From positions 1 through 56,086 of the forward strand of contig JAFVOQ010000045.1 of the NCBI GenBank assembly GCA_017505785.1: a stretch of 56,086 nucleotides of DNA, written 5' to 3'. Origin of the DNA: Clostridia bacterium (GTDB lineage: Bacteria; Bacillota; Clostridia; Oscillospirales; CAG-272). The notes below the pieces were generated by a model, which made no database searches, was not told the DNA's origin, and saw nothing but the letters and a program-made list of their open reading frames with translations. Positions 3,495-50,628 of the stretch are shown piece by piece; within the stretch, counting starts at the first letter, position 1; each line of letters starts with the position of its first letter. The translations under genes and the position numbers were made by a program.

Positions 3495-3677
3495 ATGAGC
3501 AACAAAAAAACCAAATTTTACGCACGCCTGTTGGCGATCGTGCTTTCTGTGTTAATGGTAGTAAGCATGGCATTTTACACCGTTTACATGATCGTGGAAA
3601 ACATCAGAGAAGCAAAGGAAGAGGAAGAAAAGGCAGAAAGTACGGCTGCAATTCCCTCCTACACCTTTACGGTCTAA
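3495..3677 (+). CDS. 60-aa single-pass membrane peptide, unknown function
   Basis: I do not recognise this small protein. It starts with a basic segment (SNKKTKFYARLL), has one hydrophobic helix at about residues 13-34, then a highly charged Glu/Lys stretch (REAKEEEEKAES) and a short neutral tail. An AAGGAAGG ribosome binding site lies just upstream of the ATG, and the gene begins 20 nt after the topoisomerase stop, so it is probably in the same transcript. It is followed by a strong terminator. The TM-then-acidic layout suggests an inner-membrane peptide with the charged part possibly outside. Confidence 0.6.
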   Translation: MSNKKTKFYARLLAIVLSVLMVVSMAFYTVYMIVENIREAKEEEEKAESTAAIPSYTFTV

Positions 3678-3763: not shown

Positions 3764-4228
3764 TCAATTCTTACACATGCGTTTGAGGCGTCCCCAAATG
3801 CGGCGTGGCAGAAAGCGAAGACGGCGCAAGGGCATCATAGAATGAAGAAAAACATAGAAGCGGTATTTACGTGAGGATACCGAGATGCGGCGATCCCCCC
3901 GATACACAGCACATGCACGCGCAATGATCTGCTCACGCGACACGCCGTATTCGAGTGCGGTTTGATTGTCACCGCAAAAAATGGGATCCCCGTTTTTCTC
4001 AAATTTCATCAATCGATGTAAAACAAATGCACCGTCGGCACGGCGATACAGGCAAATATCGTGCTTTTGGCAATGAAGTGGCATCACCAGCAACACGCTA
4101 TCCTTGCCCTCACGAAGCAACGGCAGCATACTGGTGCCACGCGGCCAAAGGCGAAATTCTCCACCGCTTTCGATCACCTCAAGGAGCAAGGGATAGAGCT
4201 CCTCCATGGTATATTGCTTATTCTGCAA
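3764..4228 (-). CDS. S24/S26-family peptidase, Ser/His signal-peptidase-like
   Basis: The protein (154 aa) carries the S26 box around Ser33 (PRGTSMLPLL) and the second box VLHRL with His71, followed by CGDN. Ser plus His rather than Ser plus Lys is the dyad of Sec11/SipW-type signal peptidases. I see no clear membrane anchor; the C-terminus (about 115-154) is strongly basic and may bind membrane or RNA. The start is TTG at 4228, inside the end of the PqqD gene (11-nt overlap), supported by GGGAG upstream; an ATG seven codons later has no ribosome binding site. It is the last gene of the kinase/PqqD/peptidase trio. Function is inferred: cleavage of a peptide handled by the two upstream proteins. 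Confidence 0.72.
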   Translation of the reverse strand: MQNKQYTMEELYPLLLEVIESGGEFRLWPRGTSMLPLLREGKDSVLLVMPLHCQKHDICLYRRADGAFVLHRLMKFEKNGDPIFCGDNQTALEYGVSREQIIARACAVYRGDRRISVSSRKYRFYVFLHSMMPLRRLRFLPRRIWGRLKRMCKN

Positions 4229-4484
4229 TCGCGCCTACTCCCTTCAGCGTATTGACAAACTGGGTAGCATGTGCGGTTGCAGTTTCCCTATCGATCTCAT
4301 AATTCTCGGTAATGGCGGTTACCAGCTCATCCATAGTCATGCTTTGCTCAAGCTGATCCCAAATAAAGCTACCGGTGGAGTTTACGGAGATCATTCCGTT
4401 AAATTTTTTGGTTGCCGCACCAACGGCAACGATCACATACTGTGTGCCAATTTTGCGCTTAATAAAATCCTTACTGCGTTTCAT
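4218..4484 (-). CDS. PqqD-family (RRE-like) peptide-binding protein
   Basis: This 88-aa protein has the PqqD pattern: a small N-terminal beta part (VAVGAATKKFNGMISVNSTG), FIWDQLE, then a helical MTMDELVTAITENYEID and a C-terminal helix ending with LKGVGAI. PqqD domains are RiPP recognition elements that hold leader peptides for a modifying enzyme; this is established for PqqD and lasso-peptide B1 proteins. The start is ATG at 4484, preceded by AAGGAG; a longer upstream reading is out of context. It overlaps the kinase gene by 14 nt and the peptidase gene by 11 nt, which suggests translational coupling. No precursor peptide is beside it. Confidence 0.78.
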   Translation of the reverse strand: MKRSKDFIKRKIGTQYVIVAVGAATKKFNGMISVNSTGSFIWDQLEQSMTMDELVTAITENYEIDRETATAHATQFVNTLKGVGAIAE

Positions 4485-5199
4485 TGTTATTCTCCTTTTT
4501 TCCACACATACCTTGATAGGAAACGATTGCCGCCTCAGGCAGCATGTTACAATGCAACAGGTATGTGGGTGTGCTTGTAATAAGGGCATCGAGCAAGGCG
4601 AGGTGTCGGTCTGCCATAACGGGATCCCTCGGTATGATCACCTGTGAAAACAGGCGTGTTACCGCCTCAGCATCCCCTATTAGTGCTATGATGTTCTCCT
4701 TGCCGCGCTCCAAAAAGCAAATGCTCTTTAAGGGTGCCTTTGTATTACCTCCAAGCCCTTCCTTGCCGCGCCAAGGCGTGCCAAACACATACCACTTGCC
4801 GTTGATCAGACGAAAAATAGGCTTATCACCGTTCACGATAGAGGCGCGGTCACCAAAAACTCGCAGCCAAAGATCGGTATGCGTGGATTTGCCCGTTCCG
4901 CTATGTGCGGCAAAGGCATACCCTTCACCGTCACAGGACACAACGGAGGCATGAAAGACCATAGCATCAAATCTCGCGAGCTCAAAGGCGATCTTGCGAT
5001 AAATACAAAGACATTCAAGATATCCGTCACTCGAATTGTAAATATCCTGCTCTCGCTCCGCCTCGATCTCCTCAGGGGTAACAAAAACGGTAATATCGGG
5101 CTTAGAAAATTCCGCTGCAAATTCACGGCAAAATTTTTCTGAGAAAGGATATTTATTTTGTACCTCAATATTTAATTCCGCAATGCGTATTCCAAACAA
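4471..5199 (-). CDS. HPr kinase/phosphorylase-like P-loop kinase
   Basis: The 242-aa protein has a Walker A SGTGKST at 100-106, an upstream VFHAS block (His83) and VNGDKPIF (Asp125), the layout of the HPrK C-terminal domain. It lacks the N-terminal half of true HPr kinase, so it is not the catabolite-control enzyme. Short HPrK-like kinases are known next to PqqD-type proteins, where some phosphorylate the C-terminal Ser of lasso peptides. It is the first gene of the trio and overlaps the PqqD gene. The substrate cannot be told from sequence. Confidence 0.75.
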   Translation of the reverse strand: MFGIRIAELNIEVQNKYPFSEKFCREFAAEFSKPDITVFVTPEEIEAEREQDIYNSSDGYLECLCIYRKIAFELARFDAMVFHASVVSCDGEGYAFAAHSGTGKSTHTDLWLRVFGDRASIVNGDKPIFRLINGKWYVFGTPWRGKEGLGGNTKAPLKSICFLERGKENIIALIGDAEAVTRLFSQVIIPRDPVMADRHLALLDALITSTPTYLLHCNMLPEAAIVSYQGMCGKKENNNETQ

Positions 5200-41739: not shown

Positions 41740-41785
41740 GTCGCAGTCTGTCGCACGCAAAAAAAAGCGTGCGACAGACTGCGAC
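41740..41785. promoter_or_regulatory. Perfect 19-bp palindrome upstream of spoIIAA with Spo0A-box-like motifs
   Basis: Arms 41740-41758 and 41767-41785 are exact complements around an eight-A loop. Each arm has two TGTCGCA-like units 10 bp apart (one unit reads GGTCGCA), one base from the Spo0A box TGTCGAA. On the minus strand eight T residues follow, so it may be a terminator, an operator, or both. Confidence 0.6.
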
Positions 41786-41879: not shown

Positions 41880-42020
41880 TTAGAACGGATCCGCAACTAC
41901 ATCGTCCTTAGGAGCAGTTTCGGGATTCAGAGGGCTTTCAGGCTCCCCAGATGCAGCAATGATATCTTTGCTCAAGAGGAAACGAATTTCAGCGCTGGGC
42001 TCAAGATAATGCAGTTTCAT
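41880..42020 (-). CDS. 46-aa acidic peptide, highly promoted, unknown function
   Basis: I do not recognise a named family. The peptide starts MKLHYLEPSAEIRFLL, continues through a DIIAAS-Gly segment and ends as a Pro/Asp/Glu-rich tail, DDVVADPF. It has no membrane helix or cysteine. It is supported as a gene by AAGGAGG before the ATG, a perfect consensus promoter, and a terminator. The Tyr-x-x-Pro-x-x-Glu-Ile start followed by Asp-Ile-Ile-x-x-Ser-Gly recalls many short clostridial peptides of unknown role that I remember only from sight. Possible precursor for the PqqD trio at 3764-5199, which is inference. Confidence 0.75.
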   Translation of the reverse strand: MKLHYLEPSAEIRFLLSKDIIAASGEPESPLNPETAPKDDVVADPF

Positions 42021-42058
42021 TTTATGCCTCCTTATTTCGGAAAATAATTCATGTCTTA

Positions 42059-42087
42059 ATTATAATGTATAAAATCAGGATTGTCAA
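42059..42087 (-). promoter_or_regulatory. Perfect sigma-A promoter of the 46-aa peptide
   Basis: TTGACA (42082-42087) and TATAAT (42059-42064) are exactly 17 nt apart on the minus strand. The start codon is about 40 nt downstream. Confidence 0.88.
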
Positions 42088-48746: not shown

Positions 48747-48782
48747 GACGCTACATTATAATAAGAGCAAGGAGTGCTACGA

Positions 48783-49694
48783 ATGAAATTTTTATTGTTT
48801 GCAGATCTACATTACGCGCCCAAACAATTTTTGAGTGGCTCTTTTGAGATCTTAAAAGAAATGCAGGAAGCCGCAGAGCGTGAGAACTGCGATTTTATCA
48901 TTCACGCAGGCGACTTTTGTCACGGTCCATCAAAAGTGATGGATTTTGTAGAAGAATATAACAATTTTCATATCCCCTCTTACCACTGTCTTGGCAACCA
49001 CGATTCGGATAATACCCCGTTTGAAGAAACGGTAGCACTTTATAAAATGCCCAACGAGTATTATTACTTTGACTGCAAGGGCTACCGTATGATCGTCCTC
49101 AACCCCAACTATTATAACGTTGACGGCGAATACATCAATTTTTCAATGCGTAATTATTTCAAGAACGGCCCCGCGCGCGACTGGATCCCCCCGCAGCAGC
49201 TGGCATGGCTGAAGGAAACCATTGAAACCTCCCCCTACCCTTGCCTTATTATCAGCCACGAAAGCTTCGAGCGAGCAAACGGCGTACAAAACCGCGCTGA
49301 CGTACTCAAGATCATCAACGATGCAAATGCAAAAAAGCCGCACAGCGTCCTTATGTGTATGAACGGGCACTACCACCGCGACTATATCCGTATTCTTGAC
49401 AGTGTGTGCTACTTTGATGTCAACTCGGTTTTAATGGATTGGGTACAAGGCGTTACACACGATAAATATCCTGTCGAACTTTGTGAGGAATACAAATCTC
49501 TCAATCACACCGTGATCTACAACGACCCGCTTTACTGCATCGTTGAGCTTGACGGCTCCACCATTAATATTAAAGGTAAGGAAAGCTCGATGTACCTGGG
49601 GATTACCCGTGAGGATGTAGGCGGCACTCCCTTTGACAAAGCAGGACGCCCCGTTGTGCCGAAGATCCAGAGTGGTAAGATCACACTTGGCTAA
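48783..49694 (+). CDS. Calcineurin-like metallophosphoesterase (copy 1)
   Basis: The 303-aa protein has the metallophosphoesterase motifs in order: Asp8-x-His10 (FADLHYAP), Asp44 (HAGDF), Asn72-His73 (GNHD), His in ISHES, and NGHYHRD. These bind two metals for hydrolysis of a phosphoester; the substrate is unknown. It is unlike classical CpdA. It shares a transcript with copy 2, which follows after 19 nt and is very similar throughout. AAGGAG is eight bases before the ATG. Confidence 0.88.
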   Translation: MKFLLFADLHYAPKQFLSGSFEILKEMQEAAERENCDFIIHAGDFCHGPSKVMDFVEEYNNFHIPSYHCLGNHDSDNTPFEETVALYKMPNEYYYFDCKGYRMIVLNPNYYNVDGEYINFSMRNYFKNGPARDWIPPQQLAWLKETIETSPYPCLIISHESFERANGVQNRADVLKIINDANAKKPHSVLMCMNGHYHRDYIRILDSVCYFDVNSVLMDWVQGVTHDKYPVELCEEYKSLNHTVIYNDPLYCIVELDGSTINIKGKESSMYLGITREDVGGTPFDKAGRPVVPKIQSGKITLG

Positions 49695-49713
49695 TGGAAA
49701 AGGAGAACAAGAG

Positions 49714-50628
49714 ATGAAATTTTTACTGTTTGCAGACTTTCACTACGCGCCGCACAAATTTCTCAGCGGCGAATTTGCGGAGCTGAAGGAAATTCAAGAA
49801 ACTGCTGAGCGCGAGAACTGCGACTTTATCATTCACGCGGGCGATTTTTGCAACAATCCCAAGCATTATAAAGAATTTGTAGATGCATACAACGACTTCC
49901 ACATTCCCTCTTACCATTGTATCGGCAACCACGAGTCGGGTAGCAACACGTTTGCAGAAACTCTTGCGGTATACAAAATGGACTCCCCTTACTATTATTT
50001 TGATTGCAAGGGTTACCGTATGATCGTTCTTGACCCGAACTATTATAGGGACGGCGAGAATTTCATCCACTATGAATTCACCAATTACCACGCGCCCGGT
50101 GTATCTCGCGATTGGGTGCCGCAGGATCAGCTTGATTGGCTAAAGGAAACCATTGACAGTTCTCCCTACCCTTGTCTTATCATCAGTCACGAGAGCTTTG
50201 AGCGCCCCGACGGCGTGAAAAACCGCGCGGATGTGTTAAAGATCATCAATGATGCCAATGCCAAAACACCGCACAAGGTTCTTATGTGCATCAACGGTCA
50301 TCATCACCGCGATCATATCCGCATCCTTGACGGCGTATGCTACTTTGATGTAAACTCCACCAAGATCGACTGGGTACAGGGTGTAACGCACCACGACTGT
50401 TACCCTGCTGACCTGCTCGCTAAGTACAGAGCCCTTGGACACACCGTAGTATATACCGATCCCCTTTACTGCGTGGTAGAGCTTACCGGCACCACCATTG
50501 AAATTAAGGGGCGCGAAAGCAGCATGTTTATGGGCGTCACCCGCGAGGATGTAGGCGGCACACCCTTTGATAAAGCAGGCCGCCCCGTAGTACCGAAAAT
50601 TCAGAGTGCGAAAATCACGCTCGGCTAA
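49714..50628 (+). CDS. Calcineurin-like metallophosphoesterase (copy 2)
   Basis: The 304-aa paralogue of the preceding gene keeps every metal motif (FADFHYAP, HAGDF, GNHES, ISHES, NGHHHRD) and most intervening sequence, with the last 30 residues (GGTPFDKAGRPVVPKIQS) nearly identical. The GNH motif ends in Glu rather than Asp. ATG at 49714 follows AAAAGGAGAAC. The pair clearly arose by tandem duplication and then diverged, mostly in residues 45-60 and 95-125, which may set the substrate. A palindromic terminator follows. Confidence 0.88.
   Translation: MKFLLFADFHYAPHKFLSGEFAELKEIQETAERENCDFIIHAGDFCNNPKHYKEFVDAYNDFHIPSYHCIGNHESGSNTFAETLAVYKMDSPYYYFDCKGYRMIVLDPNYYRDGENFIHYEFTNYHAPGVSRDWVPQDQLDWLKETIDSSPYPCLIISHESFERPDGVKNRADVLKIINDANAKTPHKVLMCINGHHHRDHIRILDGVCYFDVNSTKIDWVQGVTHHDCYPADLLAKYRALGHTVVYTDPLYCVVELTGTTIEIKGRESSMFMGVTREDVGGTPFDKAGRPVVPKIQSAKITLG

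Follow-up and report, generated by a model that had tools for sequence, protein, structure and literature searches.

Three overlapping genes near one end of the 56,086-nucleotide stretch of DNA analysed here (the window) encode an HprK-like kinase, a PqqD-like protein and an S26-type peptidase, and they raise the question of what such a set acts on when no substrate gene lies beside it. An earlier note, made from the sequence alone, had suggested that the three proteins could bind, phosphorylate and cleave a short peptide. That suggestion is supported by analogy with what LppB, LppK and LppS have been shown experimentally to do in the biosynthesis of linear polyphosphorylated peptides (LPPs; PMC13381572) and by co-occurrence of the trio with a family of small peptides bearing YxxP leaders. 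In our judgement the trio probably forms the peptide-maturing core of an LPP-like RiPP system, with its precursors encoded remotely.

The kinase, RRE and peptidase genes

All three genes are on the minus strand. K (4471-5199, 242 aa, TTG start, ribosome-binding site AGAAAGGA) encodes an HprK-fold serine kinase resembling LppK; P (4218-4484, 88 aa, ATG start, ribosome-binding site GGAG) is a discrete PqqD/RRE protein and putative leader-binding protein resembling LppB; and S (3764-4228, 154 aa) is a SipW/SEC11-type S26B peptidase resembling LppS. The frames overlap by 14 and 11 nt, as had been reported, and the trio recurs in dozens of genomes. The overlaps support co-transcription and translational coupling only; they do not imply, as the earlier note took them to, that the proteins are made in fixed ratio.

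The Walker A motif of K (SGTGKST) is found exactly where the earlier note placed it, at residues 100-106, with a signature NGDKP at residues 123-127, and H83, G103-K104, T106 and D125 are unchanged in 56 of 56 homologues. In S, the previously recognized Ser33 and His71 are invariant in 57 of 57 homologues, as is Asp87, which that reading missed; it lies in a GDN motif and is likely the third catalytic residue. The S sequence has no hydrophobic N-terminal anchor and is read as soluble. K is present in a single copy in the source genome (a 1.69-Mb draft in 77 contigs), and P is the sole discrete RRE found there, the other PF05402 match being a SCIFF maturase. Residue N35 of P corresponds to LppB N33, and H72 occupies the position of LppB Asp70, at which 46 of 61 relatives have Asp.

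P is assigned by Pfam to PqqD (PF05402, E 5.9e-17, with the reading trimmed by one residue), in agreement with the initial description, and Pfam searches with K and S returned no match. Single-sequence PDB searches with K or S gave no useful match. The AlphaFold model of K (mean pLDDT 95.6) matches HprK/P and PEPCK folds, with HprK/P the best (E 1.2e-6), and the model of S (mean pLDDT 93.9) weakly matches S24/S26-fold proteins (best E 2e-3). In profile searches of the PDB, S ranked SEC11A/C, of the Ser-His (S26B) type, first, and P ranked the lasso RREs TbiB1, PbaB1 and TfuB1 first and LppB fourth; the comparison of P with the LppB structure 9x8z gave E 0.006. S shares the Ser-His-Asp catalytic core of the SipW/SEC11 group, but differs in its missing N-terminal membrane anchor, its length of 154 aa and its place in an operon with an RRE.

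Two annotated systems that pair an HprK-related kinase with a PqqD protein were considered and rejected, because the scores fall far under the NCBIfam curated cut-offs: HPr-rel-A (TIGR04352/04353; HprK_rel_A score 13.4 vs a cut-off of 200) and SynChlorMet (TIGR04248/04249; ScmC score 30.8 vs 125). Paeninodin-type lasso peptide clusters share an HprK-like Ser kinase, a discrete RRE and a nucleotidyltransferase-type enzyme (PsmN-type in paeninodin). However, the trio locus has no lasso cyclase or B2 protease, the RRE has Asn (N35) rather than the Gly of paeninodin RREs, and the leader is YxxP rather than WxxP.

Recurrence and linkage of the trio

The main survey sample comprised 146 genomes from the same family as the source genome. 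K was detected in 90, S in 80 (78 once two weak matches are dropped) and PF05402 in 108; K and S occur together in 76 genomes and are both missing from 54. The 115 places at which K was found include 44 with the order K-P-S, 15 with K-P and 8 with K-S, and P is directly upstream of S in 58 of 85 cases. The genes flanking the trio are mostly unrelated between genera and largely conserved within the source genus, and close relatives with K at 66-86% identity retain all three genes. Natural K-P fusions (L306, L307) and a fusion of S to a transferase (L308, with a PF14907 match in that frame) argue that these parts are tied together. In related genera, a membrane protein of about 220 aa is encoded directly upstream of K (L035, L038, L039, L046, L050).

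PF14907 transferases, of the LppN type, are found in 91 of the 146 genomes and are associated with K (p=7e-12). The source genome encodes such a transferase at two loci, neither of them at the trio. Inspection of the trio locus found no adjoining NTP transferase or MsbA-like transporter, and no macrolactam synthetase or B2 protease in the neighbourhood. The observation that no usual RiPP enzyme or precursor adjoins the trio stands, with a precursor-like gene present farther along the same window at 41880-42020 (vide infra). The description of the trio as an orphan holds locally but fails genome-wide, given the candidate precursors and two PF14907 transferases elsewhere. A small membrane-protein ORF at 3495-3677 was rejected as a precursor, since it keeps with a topoisomerase-like neighbour when the trio is separate (L032).

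A family of YxxP peptides

The earlier note had proposed a neighbourhood search for a recurring small ORF, and such ORFs do exist: small peptides with a YxxP leader lie near K in about a dozen loci. The Tyr-anchored family consensus is Y..P..E[IV][IV].[LF]...D[IV]I[TA].S or a close variant. With a first model, 71 peptides (31-102 aa, median 43) were extracted and read; Ser falls exactly at Tyr+19 in 59 of them, a figure to be read with the inflation of conservation within the motif that model-based selection brings. Their tails are acidic, with 25% D/E vs 4% K/R. A literature search on DIITTS-type motifs found nothing relevant.

A refined model matched 57 of the 146 genomes at E<=1e-3, and K is present in all 57; 33 genomes have K only and 56 have neither (Fisher p=2.4e-17, phylogeny ignored, for a model seeded partly on peptides adjoining K). 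G004, with its best match within a frame of 763 aa, was left out of this table. The 33 genomes represent those of the 90 K-positive genomes without a peptide match at this threshold, and S was undetected in four genomes with both K and peptide (G012, G047, G078, G103). In 80 loci from other Clostridia, 18 of 23 peptide matches are near K (p=1e-4), including matches in Faecalibacterium gallinarum JCM 17207; K itself was found in that isolate and in Ruminococcus flavefaciens Y1. A single genome may have up to 13 model matches. In the source genus the precursor genes are dispersed, some of them directly behind genes for giant secreted proteins.

Peptides and trio might instead belong to separate pathways that share lineages, with the peptides serving a lasso cyclase, a radical SAM enzyme or the SCIFF maturase. 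Lasso peptides likewise have YxxP leaders (PMC13381572), and K relatives are also found beside radical SAM enzymes and Cys-rich peptides. We nevertheless regard this as quite improbable: none of the genomes positive for the peptide at E<=1e-3 lacks K, the proximity of peptides to K extends to the other Clostridia, and the only other RRE match in the source genome belongs to a dedicated SCIFF maturase.

Several observations concern these neighbouring pathways. Loci L061, L062, L066, L067 and L068 combine a K relative, a PqqD protein and a 79-88-aa Cys-rich peptide of the KKxYxKP type with a nearby radical SAM enzyme, and are kinase and radical SAM hybrid RiPP loci; some of them also encode a giant surface protein. 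Such Cys-rich peptides were rejected as precursors in the source genome, where none was matched; the looser pattern KKxYxxP has 13 matches there, one of them good (on contig C49). The SCIFF maturase of the source genome (TIGR03974, 755.8 bits) is encoded on contig C13 (L299, 710-2086), about 4.5 kb from an 862-aa frame containing a PF14907 transferase. Lasso leaders, those given for Ruminococcus being examples, are cleaved 16 residues past the Tyr (PMC7533575).

A candidate precursor gene in the window

With a model from which the genus was excluded, one peptide ranks first in the window at 16.1 bits, ahead of the runner-up at 5.2 and of the top score from 30 shuffled sets, 9.3. This candidate precursor peptide (41880-42020, minus strand, 46 aa, MKLHYLEPSAEIRFLLSKDIIAASGEPESPLNPETAPKDDVVADPF) has a YLEP leader, a DIIAAS motif with Ser 19 residues after the Tyr, and an acidic tail. 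It is preceded by a ribosome-binding site AAGGAGG (42027-42033, minus strand), conserved in two sister species, and by a predicted sigma-70 promoter (42059-42087, minus strand; TTGACA-17-TATAAT, 12/12); the two sister species (G097, G140) also have similar -35 and -10 hexamers ahead of the gene. A terminator-like hairpin with a T run (41740-41785, minus strand) separates the candidate precursor from the spoIIA operon, and may tentatively be attributed to the former.

The gene keeps its place between an EF-G-like gene and a spoIIA-like operon in G097 and G140. In the comparison with G097, synonymous and nonsynonymous changes number 4 and 0 in the leader and 7 and 5 in the tail; the leader is under purifying selection. 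Elsewhere in the window, at 48774-50628 (plus strand), are two tandem paralogous metallophosphoesterase-like genes.

The source genome has two intact members of the peptide family, that in the window and one on contig C49; the pattern DIITxS has 14 matches in the genome, of which these two are convincing and one is decayed. The C49 peptide gene immediately follows a gene encoding a secreted protein of 1001 aa, and the decayed copy follows a tandem duplicate of that secreted-protein gene.

The decayed copy bears on a further explanation, in which the trio is what remains of a decayed LPP or lasso cluster and has lost its function in this genome. The non-adjoining transporter and transferase genes and the H72 of P, in place of Asp, are also compatible with decay. 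However, the catalytic residues are intact, the frames are full-length, close relatives keep all three genes and the peptide leader is under purifying selection, and we consider loss of function very improbable.

Relationship to linear polyphosphorylated peptides

The closest characterized counterpart of the proposed maturation core is the LPP cluster lppA-K-B-S-D-N of Paenibacillus alginolyticus (Popov et al. 2026, PMC13381572), whose core is an HprK-like kinase, a discrete RRE and a SipW-like peptidase, completed by the NTP transferase LppN and the exporter LppD. In that system LppB binds the YxxP leader, with Asn33 fixing a kink at the leader Pro and Asp70 binding the leader Tyr; LppK was demonstrated to place multiple phosphates on core Ser3; and the SipW homologue LppS (S29/H68/D93) was demonstrated to cleave the leader with the aid of LppB (PMC13381572). 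In LppA, Tyr -16 and the phosphorylated Ser +3 are 18 residues apart, and neither a function nor final products have yet been identified for LPPs (PMC13381572).

The system described here has the same three core enzyme types, including a Ser/His/Asp SipW-like leader peptidase and, beside it, a discrete RRE carrying the corresponding Asn (N35 here, N33 in LppB). It also shares a YxxP leader, a similar distance from Tyr to Ser (18 in LppA, 19 here), a PF14907 transferase in the genome and the lack of a macrolactam synthetase at the locus. It differs in that the remainder of the published leader, VLxHQxIxFET (from YxxPxVLxHQxIxFETxxS), is absent at the published spacing, that a genome has several candidate precursors, encoded away from the enzymes, and that transporter and transferase do not adjoin the trio. 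LPPs have also been described mainly from Bacilli, whereas the trio is common in the Clostridia family surveyed here. Two LPP features, the consensus of the leader and the make-up of the cluster, are not reproduced here, and we therefore describe the system as an LPP-like variant, which would work in the manner of an LPP, and not as an LPP proper. The enzyme core is already known from LPPs, and the substrate side, with its peptide family and remote genes, is new here.

Extending this parallel, we infer binding, phosphorylation, the cleavage site and export, as well as the function of the peptides. P would bind the YxxP leader of the small precursor peptides, and K would transfer one or more phosphates to the conserved Ser that follows the leader Tyr by about 19 residues. 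S, placed by P, would then cut off the leader near Tyr+15 to +18; with a cut D-I-I^T-x-S, after Tyr+16, the Ser would become core residue 3, its position in LppA. Since the precursor genes are apart from the trio (about 36.8 kb away in the window, and on a different contig), the trio would act in trans, probably together with a transferase of the PF14907 (LppN) type from another locus, and the association of PF14907 with K suggests that the phosphate may receive a further group. Such a system would add a further large set of LPP relatives from gut and rumen Clostridia, including named isolates, and precursor searches confined to the enzyme neighbourhood can miss systems of this kind.

Giant secreted proteins and the cell surface

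With a candidate precursor family now defined, and with its genetic link to giant secreted proteins, experiments can address substrate, phosphosite and role directly. The link also invites a different reading, in which the trio modifies full-size cell-surface proteins, either giant secreted or tail-bearing, and the small peptides play an accessory or regulatory part. In several loci the gene immediately before K or the peptide encodes a giant secreted protein, and three loci encode, between P and S, a secreted protein whose 60-aa C-terminal tail is conserved. Those same three loci, however, have a 41-45-aa YxxP peptide immediately upstream of K, and discrete RREs bind YxxP or WxxP leaders in solved complexes (PMC13381572). 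The tail is found in just 7 of the 146 genomes and in neither the source genome nor its genus, and it was rejected as a universal substrate tag. On balance, surface proteins are unlikely to be the main substrates.

With small peptides retained as the preferred substrates, a broader proposal can be put forward only tentatively, and we would hesitate to favor it: that these loci form a distinct Clostridia RiPP class, with a single kinase-RRE-peptidase set per genome acting in trans on several short phosphopeptides from scattered genes, some of these immediately behind giant secreted-protein genes, and that the phosphopeptides serve the cell surface and are not free antibiotics.

In the source genome, the C49 locus (L298, 6865-13594) consists of two closely similar tandem genes for giant secreted proteins of 1001 and 1022 aa with a peptide gene behind each, the second peptide gene being the decayed one, and the arrangement of giant-protein and peptide genes recurs in L300, L301 and L302. 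Tail-bearing secreted or membrane-anchored proteins are found in K-P(-S) operons at L058 (7174-8181), L059 (6134-7078), L060 (6291-7313) and L102 (7760-8257), with the tail consensus TYEEY..L...Q..YF..F....DFF.W...AKA.Y......IG..GNIDLG, and tail-related units occur as tandem repeats in other proteins (L104-L106).
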